NCBI GenBank assembly: GCA_025642075.2
Contig: JAODUO010001608.1
Coordinates: 1-64,000 of the forward strand
Origin: Ridgeia piscesae
Taxonomy: Eukaryota > Annelida > Polychaeta > Sabellida > Siboglinidae
Length of the DNA stretch: 64,000 nt
Direction: 5' to 3'
Each line of letters starts with the position of its first letter. Within the stretch, counting starts at the first letter, position 1. The translations under genes were made by a program, and so were the position numbers. This document shows, one piece after another, positions 6,808-59,800 of the stretch. Below the pieces are notes generated by a model, which saw only the letters and a list, made by a program, of their open reading frames with translations, did no database searches and had not been told where the DNA came from.

Positions 6808-7080
6808 ATGAAAATCGGATTATGAATCAGCCGAGTAAAACAACAAAGCTTTACGTCGGTGATGTCGTGGAATAAATGTTCCACATCAGGCGGCTGCTTG
6901 AAGCCACGGTGTGGAATTTAAAGTTATGGCCAATCCTCAACATCAAATGTCCATGTCAACACAGGGATTACCAATATTATAATAAAACCGATGGTAGAGC
7001 CGCTATAGAATTCATTCTAGAGTTTATTCTTGACAGAGTAGATCACCTGTGGCCAGATTTTACTATTTTCGAGATGGACA
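6808..7080 (+). repeat. Duplicated upstream region of GPCR copies (pair with 11240-11497)
   Basis: This segment aligns with 11240-11497 through shared blocks: cggattat-aatc, atgtcgtggaata, ggtgtggaatttaaagtta and cctcaacatcaa. The receptor duplication therefore carried about 270 bp of 5' flank (presumptive promoter/5' UTR) with the coding sequence. No TATA box or other specific site can be defended. Confidence 0.6.
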
Positions 7081-8865
7081 ATGGCAAATGTCACTGCTTT
7101 AATGTCGACGGCGTCGTCGGTTCTAGAAGACGTTGCTACGTATAATGAAAACATCACGGATGATTGTGTTTTAGATGTGTACACTAACATATGGCGGTAC
7201 GGCTGGCCGCCGCTGTGCATGATGGGACTCGTCGGTAACACGCTCGTGCTGCTCGTGCTGAGGCGGGACGGACTCGTGCGGACGTCGACCAACGTCTACT
7301 TGAGCGCCCTGGCCTTCGGTGACAGTCTCGTGCTTCAGTGGCGGTTTATAGGGCCTGCAAGTGGGTCACGATACATGGCGTGACTCCGCGCGACTGGAGC
7401 TTATTGGGGACTAAGCGAGAGTAATTGGGGCTGGACACAAGAATAATATTCTAACGATGGATGATAGTTGTAGCTTCCGACTGATGAATACTAGGACAAT
7501 CAGTTCATAAATATTTTATGTTATACGTTTCTTATCTTAAAAGTCCGATTTAATATTGAGTTTATCACACCATCATAGACACATAGCGATTTACGTAGTG
7601 CAGATAATAGACACGATGTCAGTTAGGCCGTATGTGTCTTTTACGGAATTTGCGTTTTACATTGCTGTACGTTGTGGTTTCGATAAGCACTTATATCTGA
7701 CAAGTTGTCTAAATGCACATAATCATAACACATGTATACGTTTGGCCCAAACAGGTTGTACTGCGCGAAAACTGGGACTCTTCATTATTAGTCAAGATCG
7801 CCAAACACAAGTGCTTGCCGCTATTGCCATGGCAACCACCATGATAATCGATTAAAATTCATGATTTCCGTGATCATTGTCACCGGCAAAGTGTTCCACT
7901 GCTTCTGCTTGTAATAATCCTTCGGACAATATAACTGAAATACGCTATTTCGGAACAGATCGATTATTACGACCAAACACAAAACAAAGTCCTATACGTT
8001 AACGTGGAGTTTATGGACCTCCTGCCCCCAGCCCCAGCCTCGTTTTCGCGCGCGAGACTTGCACGCCCTATTCAGGTTTATTGTGGGGTTGGTGGTTTGA
8101 CAGTACCAGTAGATTGGTGTGTCTCATCACCTGGCCCGTTTTACACACTAGCAAACGCGTCCACTTGGTTCATTGTCGCGTTCACTGTCGAGCGCTGCGT
8201 TCTCGTCCGCTTCCCGCTACTCAAGCTACGTCTGTGCACCCCGCGCAACGCCGGCTTGTGCTGCGGGTCGCTGCTGGTGTTAGCCTTCGTCAAGAACATC
8301 GACCTCTTCTTCATAAATGACCTTGTCGTCGGTACTGATTTGCGCTGTACAGTTACTTTCCTGGGATTATGTGAACAATTACCGACCAATGATTACCTTC
8401 GTTACGTCCTATGTGATCCCGACAGGTGTCGTGATTGTGTGTAGCTGGGCGATAATGCGAACACTTCGGCGGGATATGATGCAAACATCAACGTGAGACT
8501 CGATCGTTAGACACGTGACAGTCATGTCCTTGGCCGTGTAGTTCGCATTTGTCGTCTGCGTCTTTCCCGCCCATATATTCTATGTCACTATTCCCAACTG
8601 GCCAATGCCTCTACAGGTCCAGTTCGATATCCGGCAGTCCCTGCTTCTTCTGCGGTACGCCAATCACGCCGTCAACTTCTTCCTCTACAGTCTGACGGGA
8701 GCTCATTTCCGGTGCCAGTTGGTCGCCTTGTTTCGTAGTTTCATCCAAATAGGACGTGTAACGGCAGGCGTCGTTCGTAGAGTAAAGTCACGTGTAACGG
8801 ACATTGTTCATTATCGCCGAGAATTGGACCATCACTTCGAAATACATTACAATGAACACTGCTGA
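7081..8865 (+). pseudogene. Class A GPCR (peptide-receptor-like) pseudogene, split by an inverted-repeat element
   Basis: The N-terminal block starts at ATG 7081 and contains YGWPPLCMMGLVGNTLVLLV (helix 1) and NVYLSALAFGDSLVL (helix 2). At 7349 the frame runs into a 722 bp element ending at 8070. Receptor sequence resumes with LWGWWF (ECL1), then a frameshift, then YTLANASTWFIVAFTVERC (helix 3, with ERC in place of DRY) and helix 4. A second frameshift near 8380 leads into VTSYVIPTGVVIVCSWAIM (helix 5). TGA 8494-8496 and TAG 8539-8541 then interrupt ICL3 and helix 6 (FAFVVCVFPAHIFYV). Helix 7 and the tail end at the stop of 8605-8865. Two frameshifts, two stops and an insertion make this a pseudogene. 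The family resembles invertebrate neuropeptide/FMRFamide-type receptors; the ligand is unknown. Confidence 0.8.
7349..8070. mobile_element. Non-autonomous DNA element, 722 bp, TIR TAGGGC(C/G)TGCAAGT, copy 1
   Basis: The left end is tagggcctgcaagt and the right end is the reverse complement of tagggcgtgcaagt: 13-14 bp terminal inverted repeats with one mismatch. A second copy lies reversed at 46248-46966 and aligns end to end. No transposase reading frame is present. It interrupts the helix 2 coding region of the receptor copy. No clean target-site duplication is seen: both copies have TA at their ends, and an imperfect gcggttta/caggttta pair flanks this one. The superfamily is therefore open (Tc1/mariner, hAT and PIF/Harbinger all possible). 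Confidence 0.75.
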
Positions 8866-11239: not shown

Positions 11240-11497
11240 GTAGTGAAAAGCGGATTATAAATCCGCCTAATAATGCAATAACGCGGTTATGTCGTGGAAT
11301 ACATTTTCACCCTCAGGCAGCAGCTAGAAATCATCGTTAAAGCCGGTGTGGAATTTAAAGTTACCACCCTTCCTCAACATCAAGTGATAACGTCAACAAA
11401 AACCTTAGTTAGCACTGTGACTAATAACTCTAAGTCATTATAAAATTCATTCTCAATTACATTTTTATTCGTAACGGAATAGATCACCTGTGACAAG
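11240..11497 (+). repeat. Duplicated upstream region of GPCR copies (pair with 6808-7080)
   Basis: This is the partner of the 5' flank at 6808-7080, with the same order of shared blocks ending directly before the receptor N-terminus. It supports tandem segmental duplication rather than retrocopying. Confidence 0.6.
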
Positions 11498-11830
11498 ATG
11501 TTAACAGCTTCGAGACGAACAATTGCAAATGGCAAGGCAAGGTTAATGTCGAGGGCGACGTCGGTTCTGAATGACATGGTTTCATCTAAAGAAAACAAGA
11601 CGGGTGATTTTGTTGTCGATGTGCCCGTTACGTTTTGGTGGTACGGCTGGCCGCCGCTGTGCATGATGGAGCTCGTCGGTAACACGCTTGTGCTGCTCGT
11701 GATGAGGCGGGACGGACTCGTGCGGACGTCGGCCAACGCTGATGGTCGCATCGACCGTGTGGTACCCAGTGCTAGCTTGGGGTTGGTGGTTGGTCGATGC
11801 GAATACACTGGCATGTTACGCCGCCGGGTC
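11498..11830 (+). pseudogene. Truncated class A GPCR copy (helices 1-2 and ECL1 only)
   Basis: From ATG 11498 the frame reads VTFWWYGWPPLCMM-ELVGNTLVLLVMRRDGLVRTSAN, matching helix 1 and ICL1 of the 7081 copy. About 38 bp encoding helix 2 is then missing, and the next sequence is only in receptor frame one frame over (MVASTVWYPVLAWGWWLVD, then ANTLAC). Similarity ends near 11830, followed by a cgtggcttagccagga phrase and a kilobase of microsatellite. The copy lacks helices 3-7 and is dead. Its ECL1 is intact where the 7081 copy is split, which shows what the insertion there replaced. Confidence 0.7.
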
Positions 11831-11895
11831 GGTACACATCACACCGTGGCTTAGCCAGGATCTTCCATTGGAGGGGGCCACCCGACAGCCAAGCA

Positions 11896-41876: not shown

Positions 41877-44800
41877 ATGGACGGCCCCACATGGAAGTCA
41901 GAAACGGGGATTGAAATGTCGCTGAAAGGGGGACCAAACTTCGAGAAAAATGGCGGCGCCCATAGCGTCACACATGGGTCGTCGATTTTGGTAAACAACA
42001 ACGAAGTACAGTCGGTGTTCAGTTTGAAAGTGCCTTATCTGGACCAACAGGGTGACGGCGAAGATATAGATGTTGTGCAAAATGGCGGGCACAAAAGTGA
42101 ACAGGTTACGGCGGCGAAGGCGGACAACACGTCCCTGGTGGAGAGGGAATATATGGAATCGTCGTCGCCAGCAGACGATCTTGGAAGCTCTCCAGCAGAC
42201 GATGAGGCCGTTTCTGCGCTGGGACAGGCTATTGACGGTGAAAATATCGAATGGATAAAAGCGACGGTAGACCATGAACTCGGTAGAATCACATTCGATC
42301 CAATCAGCGCCATTAGAGAAGCAGCTATTGACGGTTTAGACATGGGCGATAAAACCAGCAGAATAGAGTTCGGCGATTTGTTTACGTCGAGCACTGCCAA
42401 CTGCTCGTCTACGTCGGCTGATTCAGCACTGAGCACTTGTTCGGTTTATTCAGTGGCCGCAAATATGCTTAGCTCTGGTCAGATAATTCGTACAAATAAT
42501 GTCACAAGTCGAAATACACAATCCAGTCCGTCAAGCCCACGACGGTGTTACCGTGCCGGCAAGCAGCGTCTTCAACGATCACGCAGCTACAGTGACAGTG
42601 ACGACAACAGATTGAGTTTACAGGACAGAGCCTGTCTGGAAGAGATTGAGAGAGGTTCTCAGTTGACGCAAGAGGAGAGAGAGCTTTTTGAAAACAGCCG
42701 ACAAGAACTACAAGCGATGGAGTTTAACTCACTGCAGGATAAAAGCAATATGTTGATGACTCCTCAAGAACTGGAAAGCATGCCAGACCAGGGACTTGAG
42801 TTTGAAGCTTCAGTCGGACCAAAACAGGATCTTCTGAGTATGAAAGACGATATACAGATTATAAATATACCAGATTTGTTGACTAATACATCTGTTATAG
42901 CAACAGATGAAGATTTAATTAGCAATGCTTTACAACCTGGTGTCAATACGAACATGCAGAGTGTCTTAAAAACACCATTTTCAGACATACAATTACCATC
43001 CCATGATGTTGATGATACTCAAACAAAACTGGTAGATGGTTCATCGATTGTCAGTGTAGCCGTTTCAACTGCAACAGCTATTGACACAAACGATCCTACC
43101 ACGCAGATCATTGTAAACTCTGGTGCTGATCAGCAGATCTTTCATATCAGTAACTCAGACCTGGCAAAGTTGCAGCAGAACAATGCCGGATCTCCTCTGT
43201 CACTGTTGGGTGTCGACAGCGAGTCATTGTCTGGCTTATCTGTGCAAGATGGTAACTAACATTAAATACTTCATTCAGCATTCTATGTGATATTGGGCAC
43301 AACTGTTTTCTATAACAATTACAACAGTGACCACTGCCTATTGAAAAGGATAGGTGCTACCAGTTTCCTGACAATTGTAACATCAAATGTCTTACTGTAT
43401 TTACACAGTTTGTTTCATTAGCCTTACATCACTAGTTCATATTTAATTTTGAATGATCTTTATTTGTCTTATTTTAAAGTTTCAAATAGAATTATGAAAG
43501 CTCTTTAGTAAAACTCTGACTAAAACTTTTATTATTTTCTGACTAAATAGTTGCTAACTGCATACAATTCTACACATAAACAATACTTTTGCTACTTGAT
43601 CTCTGAGGTTATTCAAATATGGTAAACCTGATCAGCATTGTGTTTTCCTTTCCACTATTTAAATATAAAACCTTGTATATGTCGGTGGTTTTGAGTATTT
43701 CTGTTTTAAAAATAACCATACATTTGAATAATAATTTTTTTGCAGGTTATTTAGTCATTCCTGTGGATGTTGGCAGCAAGACCAATCCAACAGCTGATGT
43801 ACATGCTTTGAAGACAAAGTCCACAAAGATAACACCAACAGCAAAGCACACATCCTCTGATGTAAGTAAACATTTTAAGGTTTTTGGAAACCTGAACATT
43901 TTGAATTTACATCATATTTTATATCCAGCACAAATGTTTTTTTTCTTGAAATAATGACTTCAAATATGTGCTCACTATCTAACTTGTGTTTCTATTTGAC
44001 CTTGTTTATGTTGCATTACCTTATTTCTGCTGTGGGTGTTCTCTGCTGAGTGTCTGTAATAGCACTGTTTGTATGTGCATTAACAATGATTTATATACCA
44101 TTGTCCGTAGTAAAAAAAGACTAACAACATCAAAGTAACCATGTTAGAGGGAATTAGCAATGTAAGAAATACAGTCTAGTCTCTTTCTTATGTACATGGA
44201 TTAATAGGAATGCTATAATATGGGGCTCAAAATAAACTTCAATTATTTAAATAATATATTTTATGAATTAAATTACACGCATGTGTGTGTCTGCAGTCTA
44301 GGCTAGCGCTGTCGATCGGCAATTGCGCCATAGGCGAAACGGTTTGCTATTTGGCGAAAATAAGATAAAACTCTTCGTCAAATTGGAGAAACTGAATTTT
44401 GGTCTTTATTATTGACATTATCAGCCGTACATGACTGCATTATTCACTGCCTGGTTTTGTTGAAGTTGTCTGAACTATCGCACATCACACCGACCCAAAT
44501 AACCAATCAGCGTGACATGCCAAGCAGGGTAAACAATAGGTCGCTAATCCCTCATTTAGCCACACTTATAGACAATAGCACAGCTTAATTTAATTAAGAA
44601 TTGTGTTGCCTGGACAATGGGGACATGCTGGATGACACTAGTTACAAGTTTGAGTTGAGTAACCAATGCTGTACCTGACAGGTTCCCTATTATCGCTCAG
44701 GGTTAGCACAGTCACATCACTCACATGGCATGACCATTAAATAATCGATGTGCAATCTGGTAAATTTTAAACCAAATGTCAATTTATGGTTGATCTAATT

Positions 44801-47800
44801 CATGTATATTTGACAAGTCTCATAACCAGAACACATTACAGAGAGAGAGAGATGCATGTCAAAACATGTTTTATAATTTGTATATAGCCTCTGTCACCCA
44901 GGCCAGAATTACAGTTGATATGTAGACTATTACAGCTAATTTGGAGAATTATTCTATTCAACTAATCAGTTTTTGACCAGCCAAATGATGCTTTAAGATA
45001 GGTAATAATTATATCAGTCCACTGTTTGAATCCCTGTGTGGCAACAAAAGTAGAGTGGAATTTTCTCAATTGTACAGCCTTGTTATAAAATCTTTTAACT
45101 TTTATAAATGAAAGATGTCCCATTGATTTATTTTGTGTATTTGCAAAATTCTCAACTGTTATTCGGCTTTCTTTTTTATGGTTAAAATGTTCTTTTAAAT
45201 TATATAGGTGTTTGCTTTATATGCTTTTTATACTAATCGTGTTGTCAATGTTTAGATAACAGTGTTTTATAATGAATAATGTATGGGCAATTCCATGGTA
45301 ATGGAATTACAATTCACAACATTTTTTGGTTGATGATGGTTATATTTTCCCATTCAGCATGTGTCTAGAAAAGAAACTTAAACATGGTTTGAAGTCCACA
45401 CTACTCCCTGTAAGTACCAGTGGTACCTATTAAGAAGGGTAAAATAATTATGAAATTATGGCTATTTTGGTAACGGAATTACACAGAAAATGTGAACAAC
45501 TTTTTTCAATAAATGTCATGACATATTGTCTGAAATCTGCAATCTACCGGGGCCAGCAGCTAGCATTATTAAATAGACATAAAATGACCTTGTAGTGGAT
45601 AGAATTTTACTCATGATATGTATATCGTTCTTTTTTAGTGAACAGGTTTTGATCGGTAATGAAATTACGTGTTATGGTAACAGAATTATGAGTCTTGATT
45701 ATTTTTTTAATAAAACATCAAATAATAATTGATACTCATTTTTTCATAACTTCATTTCATGTTCTACTAAAAAAAATCAATTGTACTGGCCAATAATTGT
45801 ACACACAGTACACCGACGTAGTTCACATTTAATTCAAGATCAGTCAAAAGCAGTTATTGAACTCCTGTCCATCCGTGGGTCAGGGTAGATCTTAATGTCA
45901 CAATCTTTATCAGTTGAGACTGTCAGTGTATCTTCAACATCAAGCCACACAAATTTACATACTTCAACACATTTCAAGTAAGTTGTCACTTTAGTTTAAA
46001 AAACCTGGAAGAAAAAATTATTGTTTTTTTTCACAACCATCCACTTTAAGTCCAGATTTTTTGCAAGGTCTTTTCTGTATTCTCAAGGTTGATTACCCAA
46101 ACTGTTGTCTTCTTTGTCATCTTCATTATTTCTGTGTTTTACTTTTGAAGAAGTTCTTGTGGATTATTATTTGACATGGTTGTATAACAGTCACAAACAA
46201 TGTAACCAACTACCCTCTGTGACTCTGCAACTGCTTAATGTTGGGAATAGGGCGTGCAAGTCTCGCACGCGAAAATGAGGCTGGGGCAGTTGAGGGCAGG
46301 AGGTCCATATACTCCATGTTAACATATTGGACTTTGTTTTGTTTTGGTCGTAATAATCGAACTGTCCCGAAATAGCGTATTTCAGTTATATTGTCCGAAG
46401 GATTATTACAAGCAGAAGCAGTGGAACATTTTGCCGGTGACAATGATCACGGAAATCATGAATTTTAATCGATTCTTATGGTGGTTGCCATGGCAATAGC
46501 GGCAAGTACTTGTGTGTGGCGATCTTGACTAATAATGAAGAGTGCTAGTTTTCGTGCAGTACAACCTGTTTGGGCCAAACGTATACATGTGTTATGATTA
46601 TGTGCATTTAGACAACTTGTCAGATATAAGTGCTTATCGAAACCACAACATACAACAATGTAAAACGCAAATCCCGTAAGACACATACAGCCTAGCATCG
46701 TGTCGATTATCTGCAATACGTAAATCGCTATGTGCCTATGACAGTGTGGTAAACTCAATATTAAATCGGACATTTAAGATAAGAAACGCATAACACAAGA
46801 TATTTATGAACTGATTTTCCTAGTATTCATCAGTCGGAAGCTACAACTGTCATCCATCGTTAGAATATTATTCTTGTGTCCAGTCCCCAATTAGTCTCGC
46901 TTAGTCCCCAATAAGCACCAGTCGCGCGGAGTCACGCCATGTATCGTGACCCACTTGCAGGCCCTATTAGACTGATCCCATTCCATGTAGAATATTCTGA
47001 CAGGTCCTGGCAGCCTCTCTGGTAAACTCGTTGGATGCGATCACGTGATATCACTTCAGAGAACACTTGAGTCATAGCCTAGGACAATAAACCTTAGCCA
47101 CGTGGAAAAGAAATACTATGTAGAATTTCTTTGAAAGTCAATGAAAACATTCTGCAACTGATCTATTGATCTGGCGTATCTAATAGATTGATATGGATCA
47201 CTGGTGCCATTTCATGTAGTATCACGTCACGTGTTACAGACAGTACATGTTACACATGGTACATGTTTCTGAATCTATGGACAGTTTTCATAAGTATTGT
47301 CCAAAGGTTCCATTGATATTTAACTGAAACATTGCCCCAGTGCCTGTGCGGAACTCTAATGTACTTAGGTCCCATTACTACTTTCTTATGATTTATAGTG
47401 CAAGAGAAAAACCATGTAATTCTGTTATTATAATTCCGTTACCAAAATGTAATTCCGTTACCATTTTGGACAATGCAGCACCGAATGTACAGCGTTCTAA
47501 CTGCAGTACAACACGCTTTTAGCAAACACGCATATAACAAATTGATAGATATAACGAAACAATTTCTTACATACATATTTTTTCCTATCTTTTCTATTAT
47601 AAGTGTTCACACATATTATGAACATGGGTATATAACGAATTAATGATTATAATGAACAACATTTCCCAAATTTCACAAATTCCGCAGTACAACAAATTTC
47701 TGTGCACCTGAAAATCACCTGGGTTTTTGCAAATACGCCTGTGACCTAGAACTTATATAGCAGCACGTTGCACCAGTGGATAAGTAATCAGGTCAATGAT

Positions 47801-50800
47801 ATAACAGGGCTATACAATGCAGAGCAACTGGCTTGGGGGTTTCTTCCCAAGCCTAGAATAAATAAACATCAATAGAATACTTCTTGAAAAGCAGATTAAC
47901 TCTGATGAGTGTGTGATGTCAGGTGCAGGGAGTATGGTAGACCTGTACACTGGTGTGTGTCATTTTGTAGGATGCAAGGAGTGTGGTCTGTACACTGGTG
48001 TGTGTCATTTTGTATGATGCAGTGAGTGTGGTCTGACCAGGTCTGTACGCTGGTGTGTGTCATTTTATAGGACGCAGGGAGTGTGGTCTGTACACTGGTG
48101 TGTGTCATTTTATAGGATGCAGTGAGTGTGGTCTGTACACTGGTGTGTGTGATGATGTAGGACGCAGGGAGTGTGGTCTGTACACTGGTGTGTGTGATGA
48201 TGTAGGACGCAGGGAGTGTGGTCTGTACACTGGTGTGTGTGATGTTGTAGGACTCGGAGTGTGGTCTGTACACTGGTGTGTGTGATGTTGTAGGACTCAG
48301 GGAGTGTGGTCTGTACACTGGTGTGTGTGACGATGTAGGGTGCAGGGAGTGTGGTCTGTACTCTGGTGTGTGTGATGTAGGACACAGGGAGTGTGGTCTG
48401 TACACTGGTGTGTGTGATGATGTAGGACGCAGGGAGTGTGGTCTGTACACTGGTGTGTGTGATGTAGGACACAGGGAGTGTGGTCTGTACACTGGTGTGT
48501 GTGATGATGTAGGACGCAGGGAGTGTGGTCTGTACTCTGGTGTGTGTGATGTTGTAGGATGCAGGGAGTGTGGTCTGTACACTGGTGTGTGTGATGTTGT
48601 AGGATGCAGGGAGTGTGGTCTGTACACTGGTGTGTGTGATGATGTAGGACGCAGGGAGTGTGGTCTGTACACTGGTGTGTGTGATGTTGTAGGACTCAGG
48701 GAGTGTGGTCTGTACACTGGTGTGTGTGTGATGATGTAGGACGCAGGGAGTGTGGTCTGTACACTGGTGTGTGTGATGTTGTAGGACGCAGGGTGTGTGG
48801 TCTGTACACTGGTGTGTGTGATGTAGGACACAGGGAGTGTGGTCTGTACACTGGTGTGTGTGATGTTGTAGGATGCAGGGAGTGTGGTCTGTACACTGGT
48901 GTGTGTGATGATGTAGGACGCAGGGAGTGTGGTCTGTACACTGGTGTGTGTGATGTTGTAGGATGCAGGGAGTGTGGTCTGTACACTGGTGTGTGATGTT
49001 GTAGGACGCAGGGAGTGTGGTCTGTACACTGGTGTGTGTGATGTTGTAGGATGCAGGGAGTGTGGTCTGTACACTGGTGTGTGTGATGTTGTAGGGTGCA
49101 GGGAGTGTGGTCTGTACTCTGGTGTGTGTGATGTTGTAGGACTGCAGGGAGTGTGGTCTGTACACTGGTGTGTCATTTTGTAGGACGCAGGGAGTGTGGT
49201 CTGTACTCTGGTGTGTGTGATGATGTAGGATGCAGGGAGTGTGGTCTGTACACTGGTGTGTGTGATGATGTAGGACGCAGGGAGTGTGGTCTGTACACTG
49301 GTGTGTGTGATGTTGTAGGACGCAGGGAGTGTGGTCTGTACACTGGTGTGTGTGATGTTGTAGGATGCAGGGAGTGTGGTCTGTACTCTGGTGTGTGTGA
49401 TGTTGTAGAATGCAGGGAGTGTGGTCTGTACACTGGTGTGTGTGATGTTGTAGGATGCAGGGAGTGTGGTCTGTACCTGGTGTGTGTGATGTTGTAGAAT
49501 GCAGGGAGTGTGGTCTGTACACTGGTGTGTGTGATGTTGTAGGACGCAGGGAGTGTGGTCTGTACACTGGTGTGTGTGATGTTGTAGGACGCAGGGAGTG
49601 TGGTCTGTACACTGGTGTGTGTGATGTTGTAGGACAGGGAGTGTGGTCTGTACACTGGTGTGTGTGATGTTGTAGGACGCAGGGAGTGTGGTCTGTACAC
49701 TGGTGTGTGTGATGTTGTAGGACGCAGGGGTGTGGTCTGTACACTGGTGTGTGTGATGTAGGACCAGGGAGTGTGGTCTGTACACTGGTGTGTGATGTGT
49801 AGGACGCAGGGAGTGTGGTCTGTACACTGGTGTGTGTGATGTTGTAGGACGCAGGGAGTGTGGTCTGTACACTGGTGTGTGTGATGTTGTAGGACGCAGG
49901 GAGTGTGGTCTGTACACTGGTGTGTGTGATGTTGTAGGACGCAGGGAGTGTGGTCTGTACACTGGTGTGTGTGATGTTGTAGGATGCAGGGAGTGTGGTC
50001 TGTACACTGGTGTGTGTGATGTTGTAGGATGCAGGGAGTGTGGTCTGTACACTGGTGTGTGTGATGTTGTAGGACGCAGGGAGTGTGGTCTGTACACTGG
50101 TGTGTGTGATGTTGTAGGATGCAGGGAGTGTGGTCTGTACACTGGTGTGTGTGATGTTGTAGGACTGCAGGGAGTGTGGTCTGTACACTGGTGTGTGTGA
50201 TGTTGTAGGACGCAGGGAGTGTGGTCTGTACACTGGTGTGTGTGATGTTGTAGGACGCAGGGAGTGTGGTCTGTACACTGGTGTGTGTGATGTTGTAGGA
50301 CGCAGGGAGTGTGGTCTGTACACTGGTGTGTGTGATGATGTAGGACGCAGGGAGTGTGGTCTGTACACTGGTGTGTGTGATGTTGTAGGACGCAGGGAGT
50401 GTGGTCTGTACACTGGTGTGTGTGATGTAGGACACAGGGAGTTTGGTCTGTACACTGGTGTGTGTGATGATGTAGGACGCAGGGAGTGTGGTCTGTACTC
50501 TGGTGTGTGTGATGTTGTAGGATGCAGGGAGTGTGGTCTGTACACTGGTGTGTGTGATGTTGTAGGACGCAGGGAGTGTGGTCTGTACACTGGTGTGTGT
50601 GATGATGTAGGATGCAGGGAGTGTGGTCTGTACACTGGTGTGTGTGATGATGTAGGACGCAGGGAGTGTGGTCTGTACACTGGTGTGTGTGATGTTGTAG
50701 GACGCAGGGTGTGTGGTCTGTACACTGGTGTGTGTGATGTAGGACACAGGGAGTGTGGTCTGTACACTGGTGTGTGTGATGTTGTAGGATGCAGGGAGTG

Positions 50801-53800
50801 TGGTCTGTACACTGGTGTGTGTGATGATGTAGGACGCAGGAAGTGTGGTCTGTACACTGGTGTGTGTGTGATGTTGTAGGACTCAGGGAGTGTGGTCTGT
50901 ACACTGGTGTGTGTGATGTAGGACACAGGGAGTGTGGTCTGTACACTGGTGTGTGTGATGTTGTAGGGTGCAGGGAGTGTGGTCTGTACTCTGGTGTGTG
51001 TGATGTTGTAGGATGCAGGGAGTGTGGTCTGTACACTGGTGTGTGTGATGTTGTAGGACGCAGGGAGTGTGGTCTGTACACTGGTGTGTGTGATGTAGGA
51101 CGCAGGGAGTGTGGTCTGTACACTGGTGTGTGTGATGTTGTAGGACTCAGGGAGTGTGGTCTGTACACTGGTGTGTGTGATGATGTAGGACGCAGGGAGT
51201 GTGGTCTGTACACTGGTGTGTGTGATGATGTAGGACGCAGGGAGTGTGGTCTGTACACTGGTGTGTGTGATGTTGTAGGAATCGGAGTGTGGTCTGTACA
51301 CTGGTGTGTGTGATGTTGTAGGACTCAGGGAGTGTGGTCTGTACACTGTGTGTGATGATGTAGGACGCAGGGAGTGTGGTCTGTACACTGGTGTGTGTGA
51401 TGTTGTAGGATGCAGGGAGTGTGGTCTGTACACTGGTGTGTGTGATGATGTAGGACGCAGGGAGTGTGGTCTGTACACTGGTGTGTGTGATGATGTAGGA
51501 CGCAGGGAGTGTGGTCTGTACACTGGTGTGTGTGATGTAGGACACAGGGAGTTTGGTCTGTACACTGGTGTGTGTGATGATGTAGGACGCAGGGAGTGTG
51601 GTCTGTACTCTGGTGTGTGTGATGTTGTAGGATGCAGGGAGTGTGGTCTGTACACTGGTGTGTGTGATGTTGTAGGAGGCAGGGAGTGTGGTCTGTACAC
51701 TGGTGTGTGTGATGATGTAGGATGCAGGGAGTGTGGTCTGTACACTGGTGTGTGTGATGATGTAGGACGCAGGGAGTGTGGTCTGTACACTGGTGTGTGT
51801 GATGTTGTAGGACGCAGGGTGTGTGGTCTGTACACTGGTGTGTGTGATGTAGGACACAGGGAGTGTGGTCTGTACACTGGTGTGTGTGATGTTGTAGGAT
51901 GCAGGGAGTGTGGTCTGTACACTGGTGTGTGTGATGATGTAGGACGCAGGAAGTGTGGTCTGTACACTGGTGTGTGTGATGTTGTAGGGTGCAGGGAGTG
52001 TGGTCTGTACTCTGGTGTGTGTGATGTTGTAGGATGCAGGGAGTGTGGTCTGTACTCTGGTGTGTGTGATGTTGTAGAATGCAGGGAGTGTGGTCTGTAC
52101 ACTGGTGTGTGTGATGTTGTAGGATGCAGGGAGTGTGGTCTGTACTCTGGTGTGTGTGATGTTGTAGAATGCAGGGCGTGTGGTCTGTACACTGGTGTGT
52201 GTGATGATGTAGGACGCAGGGAGTGTGGTCTGTACACTGGTGTGTGTGATGATGTAGAATGCAGGGAGTGTGGTCTGTACACTGGTGTGTGTGATGATGT
52301 AGGATGCAGGGAGTGTGGTCTGTACACTGGTGTGTGTGATGATGTAGGATGCAGGGAGTGTGGTCTGTACACTGGTGTGTGTGATGTTGTAGGACGCAGG
52401 GTGTGTGGTCTGTACACTGGTGTGTGTGATGTAGGACACAGGGAGTGTGGTCTGTACACTGGTGTGTGATGTTGTAGGACGCAGGGAGTGTGGTCTGTAC
52501 ACTGGTGTGTGTGATGTGTAGGACCAGGGAGTGTGGTCTGTACACTGGTGTGTGTGATGTTGTAGGATGCAGGGAGTGTGGTCTGTACACTGGTGTGTGT
52601 GATGTTGTAGGACGCAGGGAGTGTGGTCTGTACACTGGTGTGTGTGATGTTGTAGGATGCAGGGAGTGTGGTCTGTACACTGGTGTGTGTGATGTAGGAC
52701 ACAGGGAGTGTGGTCTGTACACTGGTGTGTGTGATGTTGTAGGATGCAGGGAGTGTGGTCTGTACACTGGTGTGTGTGATGTTGTAGGGTGCAGGGAGTG
52801 TGGTCTGTACTCTGGTGTGTGTGATGTTGTAGAATGCAGGGAGTGTGGTCTGTACACTGGTGTGTCATTTTGTAGGACGCAGGGAGTGTGGTCTGTACTC
52901 TGGTGTGTGTGATGATGTAGGATGCAGGGAGTGTGGTCTGTACACTGGTGTGTGTGATGTTGTAGGATGCAGGGAGTGTGGTCTGTACACTGGTGTGTGT
53001 GATGTAGGACGCAGGGAGTGTGGTCTGTACACTGGTGTGTGTGATGTTGTAGGACTCAGGGAGTGTGGTCTGTACACTGGTGTGTGTGATGATGTAGGAC
53101 GCAGGGAGTGTGGTCTGTACACTGGTGTGTGTGATGATGTAGGACGCAGGGAGTGTGGTCTGTACACTGGTGTGTGTGATGTTGTAGGAATCGGAGTGTG
53201 GTCTGTACACTGGTGTGTGTGATGTTGTAGGACTCAGGGAGTGTGGTCTGTACACTGGTGTGTGTGATGATGTAGGACGCAGGGAGTGTGGTCTGTACAC
53301 TGGTGTGTGTGATGTTGTAGGATGCAGGGAGTGTGGTCTGTACACTGGTGTGTGTGATGATGTAGGACGCAGGGAGTGTGGTCTGTACACTGGTGTGTGT
53401 GATGATGTAGGACGCAGGGAGTGTGGTCTGTACACTGGTGTGTGTGATGTAGGACACAGGGAGTTTGGTCTGTACACTGGTGTGTGTGATGATGTAGGAC
53501 GCAGGGAGTGTGGTCTGTACTCTGGTGTGTGTGATGTTGTAGGATGCAGGGAGTGTGGTCTGTACACTGGTGTGTGTGATGTTGTAGGACGCAGGGAGTG
53601 TGGTCTGTACACTGGTGTGTGTGATGATGTAGGATGCAGGGAGTGTGGTCTGTACACTGGTGTGTGTGATGATGTAGGACGCAGGGAGTGTGGTCTGTAC
53701 ACTGGTGTGTGTGATGTTGTAGGACGCAGGGTGTGTGGTCTGTACACTGGTGTGTGTGATGTAGGACACAGGGAGTGTGGTCTGTACACTGGTGTGTGTG

Positions 53801-56800
53801 ATGTTGTAGGATGCAGGGAGTGTGGTCTGTACACTGGTGTGGTGATGATGTAGGACGCAGGAAGTGTGGTCTGTACACTGGTGTGTGTGATGTTGTAGGA
53901 CTCAGGGAGTGTGGTCTGTACACTGGTGTGTGTGATGTAGGACACAGGGAGTGTGGTCTGTACACTGGTGTGTGTGATGTTGTAGGATGCAGGGAGTGTG
54001 GTCTGTACTCTGGTGTGTGTGATGTTGTAGGATGCAGGGAGTGTGGTCTGTACTCTGGTGTGTGTGATGTTGTAGGATGCAGGGAGTGTGGTCTGTACTC
54101 TGGTGTGTGTGATGTTGTAGGATGCAGGGAGTGTGGTCTGTACACTGGTGTGTGTGATGTTGTAGGATGCAGGGAGTGTGGTCTGTACACTGGTGTGTGT
54201 GATGTTGTAGAATGCAGGGAGTGTGGTCTGTACACTGGTGTGTGTGATGATGTAGGACGCAGGGAGTGTGGTCTGTACACTGGTGTGTGTGATGATGTAG
54301 GACGCAGGGAGTGTGGTCTGTACACTGGTGTGTGTGATGATGTAGGATGCAGGGAGTGTGGTCTGTACACTGGTGTGTGTGATGATGTAGGATGCAGGGA
54401 GTGTGGTCTGTACACTGGTGTGTGTGATGTTGTAGGATGCAGGGAGTGTGGTCTGTACACTGGTGTGTGTCATTTTGTAGGATGCAGGGAGTGTGGGTGA
54501 GGCTGTGTTTGGACATCGTTGCGTGTGTCCAGAGGAAGGCTGTGGCCAGTCTTTCAGCCGACCTTACAAGCTAAGGATACACATGATGACGCACACAGGA
54601 GAGCGACCATTTAAGGTATCTTCATTAGGAGCATTCTTTTACAAAATGCAAAAACATATTCTTAAGCTAGGATTGGATCTAAAACCTAGTAAACCAATGA
54701 ATGTGGTGCCAAGTGGAGATATAAGTAGTTCCAAACATACCCTGATGGATGAGCTTTGAAGTCAAGAACGGAACTGAATCCTGATATTTCGGGGTTTATA
54801 CTAGTGTGAATAATAATCGCTAGATGTCACTAGGTTTTGGGGTAACATCACCAAATAACACACGTATCTAGACAGCAGATTTTCCGACAGTTTGTCACCA
54901 AGTTTACAGATATTGATTGATAAAAATTGTAATTTCAAGCAAAATAAAATCGGCAATGGATCATAGCTGTCTTACTGTGGTATCGATAATTGTGAGCAAG
55001 AATTGTAGTTGTTTACCGGTAGTTATTATATTCGATGATTTGGATGAAAATGTGATCAGCAGCAGCGATGTTGACAGGCCTGGTTGACATCAGCGATACT
55101 TCTGTTTGTTCTGAACTGTCATATAATTATGCATTAGCCATAAAATAAAACTGGTTTCCATGTTTCTTGGCGGCCATCTTATTTTTTACATAAAGGATAT
55201 TCTGATTACTTTCAATAATTGTTGTAGTTCCATAACTAATTTTGATGCTAAAGGCAAATTTATTCTAATTCATGCAATATTATTTTATTTTGTACTTCCA
55301 TACGCTGTATTCCATATAGTACTTGTAATGGCAGTGTTATTTGCTGTATGTACTATTTCAATCCTGTTTTGAGATAAGACAGGACCAACTTCCTATGTGA
55401 CAAATATAGAAATCCAATTGATGTATGAATATAACTTTTGAAGTACTTATAGAAGATACCTTACATTTTAATAATTGCTTATAACTGTGAAGGAATCACA
55501 AAGTAAAACTGATTTTCATATTTATTTTCGTCCATGTTTGATTTTTGACATGTAACTTATATACTAATTAGTTTCAAATAGTTATACAACAATGATTTAT
55601 ATACCATTATATAGATAATTGCTTTCTGATTCAGGTAATATACATTATATAATTATGACAAACTGTTTACAATATGGTTCATTCAATAGTGTTGAAGCCC
55701 TCAGAAACTGGATGCCTATCTTCTGTCTACCCACAGTGTCCTGAGCCTGGGTGTGCGTGGGCATTCACAACAGCATACAAGCTAAAGCGACATGAAGAAT
55801 CTCACGGAGGAAAGAAAGAATACATTGTAAGTTGTCATCGGATTGAAAGAGACTTGAATGTACCATCTTTGATAGTTAGTAAGTATAACAGTTAATTAAC
55901 CCTAGAAGTGACCAAGGCCAAAAATCAGCCAAATGCACCTGCCTCTGTTGTAAAAAAAATCATTTCCATCATACTAAACTGACACATGAAAATTTGGTAT
56001 CATTGGATAGCTGACAGATTTTTCTAGATGGTGTATATTTTTCCTTGCGTGGATTCAGTGACAGATACTTCGCAGTCAAGTTTAAAAAGCACATGATGCA
56101 GTTGCTATCCATATTTTGGGAGATTTTACTATGTCCTAATGAATGAATTTACGCATTCATTCATAAAGTCTACACCCCCACACATGCAATATTAAAAGAA
56201 AGCTCTGTGAGTGGCCCATCTGCCAAAAATAAATCACATGGGTTCAATCCATTCAGCCAAACAGAAACGTGATTTCACCGACCCTGCGAAACCAAAGTTG
56301 AAGACAAAATGGCATCGCAGTAAACAACAGTTTATCAGCTTCGCAACTTTCCTTTGGATCATCTCCAGTTTCTGTGGTGATATTTTGACAAAATGCTTGA
56401 CAGTATTCATAAACAAGGTTATTATATTAGTTCATGTAGTTAGATTGACTTTGGAGGCATTTTGAGGGTGAAAATTCACCAAATTAGCAGTGCGACATTT
56501 ATCCAGCTGGGCACATGGGTTGCAATGGTAATGAGTGCGGCCGCAATTGGCCGGCTTGAATCAAGGTATTTTTAAGTCAGAAAAAATCTTTAAAATAATA
56601 GTTCTCAACAGATTAGTTTCAATTTTTTTTTTCAGATACAAATATCCCCATTGTTTTGGTTTGTTCTACATATATTATAATGTTATTATAATAAAGCATT
56701 CTTTTAGTGTTTAGTGTCATATTTTTATTACCAATATTAGCGAAGTTATGATTTTTACAGGAACAGTATGCTACAGAGAATTGTTTTTGGTCCCTCTAGG

Positions 56801-59800
56801 GTTAATATCGATAACCCAGTAGATCCATGTTAAACTAGACAGTTGCTGCCTATATCTTCATTTAAACTACCAATTTTATATGCAGTTGTGTTAATTTTGA
56901 TGTTTAACTCTTTACTGGGTAGACAGCCTTCTTATTTTACACCCTGCTGTGGGCAGATAATTTTAAGATGGCAGCCATCTGTGAATTACGCTGCATGTTG
57001 CTTGCATTAAAATTTGAATAACTCGACAATCGATGCATGAAAATATATTAAATTAATTACACTGTACATGGAATGATTGTGTGAATAAAATGTATTTATT
57101 TATGTGTTGCAATCAATTACATTTCAGATCTTGAAGCTAACTTCAACAATTATGATGACAAAATAAATAAGCAACTTCATCATGCTACATATTAAAAAAT
57201 TCACAAGATGGCGACAGCACATGTTTCCGTGACCTACATAGAGCTTAGATCAGCAGTTGGTTATTGTAAAAGAAGGATCTGATCACGGTAAATGAAAGGC
57301 CCACGAACTGTGAGTTTACTGGGCGGTTTTGGACGGTCTGCACAGTAATGAGTTAATTATCTTTAAAATTATGTGACTTTGGTTCGTGCTTGTTAAAGAT
57401 ATAAGTTTTTATAAGAACCACTGTACAGATTATAATTTTATGTTGGTGTAATTTCAGTGTGATATTGTTGGTTGTGGTCGTAAGTTCACAACCGTGTATA
57501 ACCTGAACTCCCATCGCAAGCTGCATACACGGCCATGCACAGAAGAGTGTCCTCAGCCAGGGTGTGGCCAGAGATTCCCAACAAAGAAACAACTTGATTA
57601 TCACATGAAGGAACACGGTCCTGGCCAGAAGACTTACTGGTGAGTGGTGTCTTCACAATTGTCACACTAGTGCTGTCTTCGCAACTGTCACACTAGTGCT
57701 GTCTTCGCAACTGTCACAGCAGTGCTGTCTTCACAACTGTCACACCAGTGCTGTCTTCGCAACTGTCACACTAGTGCTGTCTTCGCAACTGTCACAGCAG
57801 TGCTGTCTTCGCAACTGTCACAGCAGTGCTGTCTTCGCAACTGTCACACCAGTGCTGTCTTCGCAACTGTCACACTAGTGCTGTCTTCACATCTCTTTTA
57901 TATGCTTTTAGTATGATTTAAAATAATTTTTACGAAATGTCTTTTGGTTTGTGAATTCTCAAGAGACACTGCATGCTAGAAAGGCAGTGGCATCACACTG
58001 TTCTAAACGTGGCTTATAATGTATTCTTCTAGACGTGCACTCTACATGTCATACGTCTTCCTTTTGTTAAAACTCAGGCTTGTATGGTTTGGAAGCTTCT
58101 TCTATTCAAGGTGTATGGAATAGTAGCTTAACAGAACAAAATTAATGGATTTGAAGCAGCACAAAATTATTGCGGCAACAATTTACATGAGTGTGATACA
58201 CAACTCTTACAGCTATGTCGGAAACAAATCTTTTCTGATTCTCAAAAAGAAACAACTAATTATCCTAAAAAACAAAACAAAATTATTTAGTTGCATTTTA
58301 TATTGCAAGGCGGTTTTATGCTGTTTTTCAGTTACATTTAAAATATGTAGTGAGGCAGTATTATGCTGTTTTTCCTGTTTCTTTGTGAAAACTTGATTTG
58401 AATTGCAAAAAGATATTGTTATATACTGAATTCTTGCCATGATAGACAATGTCATTTTATTATAATATATTTATAGTTTTTTATAAGTTTCTTGACCAGT
58501 TCATCATTTCGTCCATATTCCCATGTTTGTCTGTAGTTGTCCACATGCAGGGTGTGACATGAAGTTCTACTCCCCATTCTGCATGGGTTCCCATGCACGT
58601 GTGCATCAACGTACACGTGACCTCACATGCAAGGTGGAAGGCTGTGGTCGCAAGTTTGACAAACAGTGTCGACTGAAACAACACATGCGCTCCCACACAG
58701 GAGAACGACCCTACATTTGTAGGTGTGTAAATGGTCATTCTATTCCACAATTTCTCACTGTCAATACTGTGTCAGTACTGTGACATTGTTATTCTTGGTT
58801 TCAGTTGATTTTGAATAAGTAAATACAAGTCCGATCTACAGATTCCTTAATCCTGCACGTGACCTGGGCCGAAAATTGAGCCAATGGCACCTGCCTCTGT
58901 TGTAACAATTTTCATTTCCATCACGCGAAACTGACCGCAGTAATGGCGGATGATAGTACTTGTAAATAATGCTGGCAATAATAGACTTTATAAACATTAC
59001 CAATGGAGGCAAACCTGCAAATAACAGCAGCCAGGTCATTATGCTAACTGTAAATGACGTATTTGTTAGGTTAATGATCATGAAATTAAAATATCTTAAC
59101 TACCTTACTTGCTGAGTAGTCAACTTTCAGAATGTATAATTTTATGATGTTCCTGTTGTAAAATTCAATATGTGTGATTATGATCTAAAATAAACTACAA
59201 ACATTTTGGTGACACAATATAATAGGGCACCATAGTCTTCTTTCCATGCAAAAAACTATGGATGAGGTAAATTGGAAAAAATTGAAAATTTACATTGAGT
59301 AGATAGTCAAACGAATTGCAGTAGGAGCGTAATAAGGTGGCGCCCATTGGTCAACGATATCCAAGTTTGAAAACATTATTTTAAATATACCGTGGCGCCA
59401 TGCTCATCAAATCATGGTCACATATCCTCTAAATGTAATTTTTTATGTTTGAGTTGTAAACTATATTATACATTAGGTGTTTAAGCTAGATGATATGATG
59501 TTTACAGTATTGAAGGATGCGGATGGGCATTCTCGTCATCGAGCAAGCTGAAGCGCCACCTACACAAACACACGGGTAACCGCCAATGGATGTGTCCGGA
59601 GCCAGGGTGTGGCAAAGCATTTATGAGATCAGAACATTTAAAGGGTCATATGATCACACACACAGGACAGCGACCATTTGCCTGCCCAATTGAAGGTTTG
59701 TGTCAAGTTAAAACGGCAAGTTAAAAAGGCAATGGTCTTTATGTGTATATATTGTGTATGTAACCCTTGATGTTTAACCCTGCGACCAGCCAGGGCTGAT

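Follow-up and report, generated by a model that had tools for sequence, protein, structure and literature searches.

A 45-bp minisatellite of 147 units lies across the intron 2/exon 3 junction of a ZXD-type zinc-finger gene in Ridgeia piscesae, within a window comprising positions 1-64000 of contig C1608 (162,579 bases; assembly of 628 Mb in 4875 contigs). We read it, with a probability of about 0.7, as a minisatellite seeded by the junction itself, of the kind named mirage in amphioxus. Arrays of like anatomy are present in five other Ridgeia genes, and junction-seeded arrays appear to be frequent in this species, seemingly a habit of the genome and no special brake on one gene. We give somewhat better than even odds to the idea that minisatellites arise preferentially at splice junctions across the whole genome, on either exon side, through a process by which many genes would acquire tens to hundreds of splice-site copies, the spliceosome coping by use of whichever copy lies closest to the exon body.

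Acceptor copies at the ZXD locus

The closest protein to the ZXD-type gene is NP493_1608g00035 from the siboglinid annelid R. piscesae itself (100% identity across the covered part), and many of the top relatives bear the name ZXDC-like. The rebuilt gene model has nine exons, in frame throughout, with GT/AG introns; mapping of the deposited protein adds five further exons, one of them still within the window. The acceptor of exon 3 is modelled at 54481, with exon 2 ending in phase 0 and the nine-exon frame staying open. The deposited protein (P0001; 55674 to C1608:66964) starts within intron 3; exons 1-3 are missing from it, possibly as a result of the array concealing them from gene callers. 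Exon 1 was located in two relatives (P0121 and P0122). Another protein with a near-identical exon 3 frame (P0123), retrieved with the translations of exon 3 and the array, starts at the exon's own GTG and was set aside as uninformative on the upstream DNA.

The 6.6-kb satellite of 45-bp units that the initial annotation placed against exon 3 is present at 47943-54496, ending 16 nt within the exon. Tandem Repeats Finder gives a period of 45, 147 copies and 93% matches, the copy number being approximate and referring to one haplotype, and 110 of 145 intervals between units measure exactly 45 bp (the remainder 41-55 bp). The further claim that every unit contains the junction string holds only in part: the exact 21-mer TTGTAGGATGCAGGGAGTGTG occurs only 32 times, whereas the pattern TGTAGGA[CT]GCAGGGAGTGTGG occurs 92 times. 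A TAG occupies the acceptor site of 146 of the 147 units. The length of the array is by itself unremarkable in the Ridgeia genome, some minisatellites of which reach 3-7 kb; its position is remarkable. On the minus strand of 47943-54496 all three frames are open, for up to 1584 codons, which makes the array a trap for gene callers.

Use of an upstream copy was predicted to give a truncated product, and all 145 upstream acceptors do reach a stop in the frame of exon 3, leaving 54481 as the only acceptor among 146 that is open through the exon. The predicted stop after 14 codons applies to 111 of the 145; for 22 others the stop comes after 11-13 codons and for 12 after 21-396. Only four of the 146 acceptors, the true one among them, imply an exon 3 of at most 300 nt. 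Pyrimidine stretches are weak in the bulk units, with a longest run of 2 at 122 of 146 acceptors and a mean pyrimidine share of 0.49 for the decoys against 0.60 for the true acceptor. The array also contains 138 (GT)4 runs of 8 nt, most units having one. Matches to the branch-point-like motif YTNAY are scarce (3 in the 6.6-kb array against 97 in the upstream 4.1 kb of intron 2). This scarcity was rejected as a sign of selection because the units repeat a single 45-bp sequence and because the motif is likewise missing, in the stretch tested, at the true acceptor and in introns 1, 6 and 7.

The edges of the array differ from its interior. As had been noted from the letters, the outermost units share the CATTTT form of the true acceptor: the TCATTTT variant is found in units 1-4, 28, 111 and 147 of 147, and seven units drawn at random would include the first four plus the last with a probability of 4e-8. 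The closest of the 146 other units to the exon-3 unit is unit 1. Inside the array, 41 unit types are arranged in ordered blocks, and identical blocks of 5-9 units recur at offsets of 25, 43 and 68 units. This is the usual minisatellite pattern, in which growth proceeds by block duplication and the ends are spared homogenisation.

The satellite belongs to this locus alone. A 221-base DNA query against the genome returned 66 matches among the best candidates scored, all 66 within the array. With at most 2 mismatches allowed, a 20-base pattern matched the genome 138 times in forward and 4 times in reverse orientation; the window alone contains 138 forward matches, and therefore all of these lie in the array, while the four reverse matches are single and isolated, one each on four other contigs. 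Presence at many unrelated loci, which the initial annotation had named as evidence against an origin from this junction, was thus not encountered (138 of 142 pattern matches lie in the array), and neither the 221-base query nor the 20-base pattern revealed a second locus in the genome.

Junction arrays elsewhere in Ridgeia and their frequency

The ZXD case had been considered unusual, which is not borne out, since arrays spanning a splice junction are found in six genes of a small sample. The five further genes are CNOT11, which follows ZXD on the contig (PDB 8bfi, E 1.8e-76), a PAK-type kinase, CHK1, PASK and MAPK7 (Table 1). In all five, the residues encoded where the exon meets the array agree with solved homologues of those names, and the array there therefore descends from the exon. 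In the arrays counted, most units keep their splice signals, which is consistent with harmless decoys; in the PAK-type array, all 18 of the upstream acceptors found reach a stop after 9 codons.

The 43-bp CNOT11 units also contain a CACAG acceptor-like site and, together with GTAA, each unit resembles a 10-nt micro-exon. Two other CNOT11 arrays, of 29 and 31 bp, might be read as donor arrays whose bulk donors are dead; these readings were rejected, as in the gene model the former covers the stop codon in the last exon and the latter is about 250 nt from an exon. A general silencing of bulk copies was dropped along with these two readings.

Table 1. Coordinates and composition of the arrays and ZXD exons (C1608 numbering where coordinates are given)
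Feature	Position	Strand	Period x copies	Remarks
45-bp tandem array, ZXD	47943..54496	+	45 bp x 147	end of intron 2; 3' end 16 nt into exon 3
Decayed further unit, 5' edge of array	about 47905..47942	+		identified by eye
ZXD exon 2	43746..43861	+		donor GAT/GTAAGT, phase 0; gene model
ZXD exon 3	54481..54615	+		135 nt, phases 0/0; encodes zinc finger 1; acceptor in last array unit
ZXD exon 4	55737..55826	+		phase 0; in-frame join to exon 2 if exon 3 skipped
Second array, ZXD	57643..57888	+	26 bp x 9.5	starts at fourth base of intron 5, beside donor
CNOT11 donor array (L009-L010)	C1608:72671-74903		43 bp x 52	after ...VVNRLTT; GTAA kept in 47/48 anchored units
29-bp array, CNOT11 (L009)	C1608:71323-71775		29 bp	overlaps end of last coding exon and stop codon
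PAK-type kinase acceptor array (L038)			51 bp x 20.5	CAG in 17/17 anchored units
MAPK7 donor array (L042)			20 bp x 16	GT in 14/16 units
PASK acceptor array (L044)			40 bp x 23	CTGTAG or CTGCAG in 21/23 units
CHK1 acceptor array (L050)			36 bp x 3	

Across 16 sampled stretches, minisatellites make up 21% of 135 kb, at 0.18 arrays per kb. C1608 between 41.9 and 85 kb, whose genes neighbouring ZXD were chosen because of the ZXD finding, holds eight arrays of period at least 15, two of which span a splice junction. At 23 protein-kinase loci (the best 15 of 135 matches plus 8 of a list of 20, picked by coordinates with the sequence unseen), 4 of 13 merged arrays lie across an exon junction. Six junction arrays are thus seen against 0.66 expected from array density for 80 junctions (Poisson 7e-5), or five when the originally given ZXD array is left out (Poisson 6e-4); the kinase loci by themselves, with 60 junctions allowed, yield 4 against 0.5 expected (Poisson 0.0017). 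The null model behind these values uses a density of 0.18 per kb and a 45-nt window per junction, with 60-100 junctions assumed rather than counted. The enrichment of arrays at junctions in this small sample is a strong hint rather than a survey.

Elsewhere in the window, similar open frames resembling G-protein-coupled receptors recur at 7042-8865, 11483-11854 and 46191-46773 (minus), as if repeat-borne; the frame at 7042-7383 has a weak 7tm_1 match, under the curated cut-off.

Origin of the arrays and competing explanations

Decoy or cryptic intronic 3' splice sites are known as one or a few sites whose effects have been shown. They share with the ZXD array the presence of upstream acceptor-like sites able to compete with the true one, and differ from it in that ZXD has about 145 copies of one junction. 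The closest counterparts are in amphioxus, where tandem repeats across intron-exon boundaries were named mirages and described for Adh3, BflGb6 and BflGb9; in the excerpts available of that report, the BflGb6 mirage has 6 units in one haplotype and 3 in another, and mirages are said to leave regular splicing undisturbed and possibly to explain intron gain (PMC3087553). Adh, TnC and PGBD5 are listed among the mirage genes in excerpts of a second report (PMC3902484). As described in these two sources, the mirage unit lies over a splice junction, be it an acceptor or a donor, AG/GT signals survive in some of the units, and the edges escape homogenisation while the interior turns over. The ZXD repeat unit likewise crosses an exon-intron boundary, as placed by the gene model, and the edges of its cluster lie outside homogenisation. 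The two differ in lineage (cephalochordate versus annelid) and in size (3-6 units in BflGb6 versus 147), and normal splicing has, according to those excerpts, been demonstrated for the mirages, whereas the ZXD array is known from its sequence. No annelid report of junction-spanning minisatellites was found in the literature searched, most subscription journals lying outside the search; relative to the mirages, the phylum, the size and the apparent frequency are new.

The claim that the junction was the seed is favoured by a unit that straddles the acceptor, by edges that keep the acceptor variant and by the lack of a second locus, while the direction of seeding at ZXD we infer. An origin of the unit from ZXD's own junction fits by analogy with the five other genes, and no second genomic source was found. 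A short stretch over the intron 2/exon 3 border would have been duplicated in tandem, and block duplication with homogenisation would then have extended the array on its intron side, away from exon 3, while the outermost unit at either end stayed closest to the ancestral sequence. Intron-side copies would be free to multiply, and exon-side copies would alter the protein. The productive acceptor would be the outermost copy, nearest to the body and donor of exon 3; most acceptors of the array would imply an exon too long for definition. We propose that the gene tolerates the array because recognition spans each exon as a whole, as is typical of animals with long introns. Under exon definition, array acceptors should seldom be chosen, except perhaps for the one to three copies closest to exon 3, and ZXD splicing would be near normal.

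Several observations weigh against this account. Most of the arrays in these two samples do not span a junction, namely nine of the 13 at the kinase loci and six of the eight on C1608, of which one starts 4 nt into ZXD intron 5, one covers the CNOT11 stop codon and four do neither. Recent homogenisation, and not harmlessness, could be why splice signals persist. The residues at the start of exon 3, ahead of finger 1, are not conserved in the distant homologues compared, which speaks for a rival order of events: the satellite would have come to lie beside exon 3, and one of its units would have furnished the exon with a new acceptor and its five opening codons. We regard such an array-first origin at ZXD as improbable, given that no other genomic source of the satellite was found and that in the five other genes the exonic sequence clearly predates the array.

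If ZXD were instead under a regulatory brake, upstream acceptors would be used often, the early-stop transcripts would decay and ZXD output would drop with array length. The upstream acceptors, each followed by a stop before exon 3, are indeed transcribed ahead of the true site. The weak pyrimidine stretches of the bulk units speak against their frequent use, and the recurrence of like anatomy in several unrelated genes is evidence against a mechanism peculiar to ZXD; in the excerpts, the amphioxus mirages are reported without aberrant mRNA (PMC3087553, PMC3902484). A brake is unlikely, and is not favoured because the amphioxus counterparts are reported to splice normally and decoy signals have not been purged from the Ridgeia arrays counted. 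The array might otherwise govern inclusion of exon 3 through a UG-repeat-binding protein, on the precedent of the TG tract before CFTR exon 9, which is bound by TDP-43 (PMC12171016, in excerpt). Both have a UG-rich stretch just 5' of an acceptor, supplied at ZXD by the (GT)4 runs, and skipping of exon 3 would remove finger 1 in frame because the exon has 135 nt and phases 0/0; weak recognition of the exon may thus yield an in-frame ZXD without finger 1. The CFTR tract, in contrast, is short and without repeated acceptors, and its binding and the skipping are demonstrated, whereas the ZXD side consists of sequence features, namely GT-run counts and exon phase. The GT content may simply be inherited from the seed, and we consider this control of exon 3 quite unlikely.

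An assembly artefact, with a true array much shorter or longer, is very unlikely. A published Ridgeia assembly is described, in the part of the report available, as short-read with a contig N50 of 10.4 kb, and could hardly resolve such an array (PMC9921365); the assembly analysed here is a different one, of 628 Mb as opposed to the published 575 Mb. The window contains no N, the N runs elsewhere being round blocks at the ends of stretches, and the ordered blocks of unit types also argue against an artefact.

What the arrays offer

The choice of the spliceosome among near-identical sites is usually studied in engineered constructs with few copies. Ridgeia offers natural arrays of 3 to 147 copies in one species, on both the acceptor and donor sides and with weak (ZXD) as well as strong (PAK-type) signals, which open three questions to direct testing: how exons are defined, in what order transcription and splicing proceed, and whether introns are gained from duplicated junctions. 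For annotators, the deposited ZXD protein, which begins in an intron and is missing its first exons, is a warning. If junction seeding is genome-wide, every gene affected would put exon definition to a natural test and might give rise to new introns.

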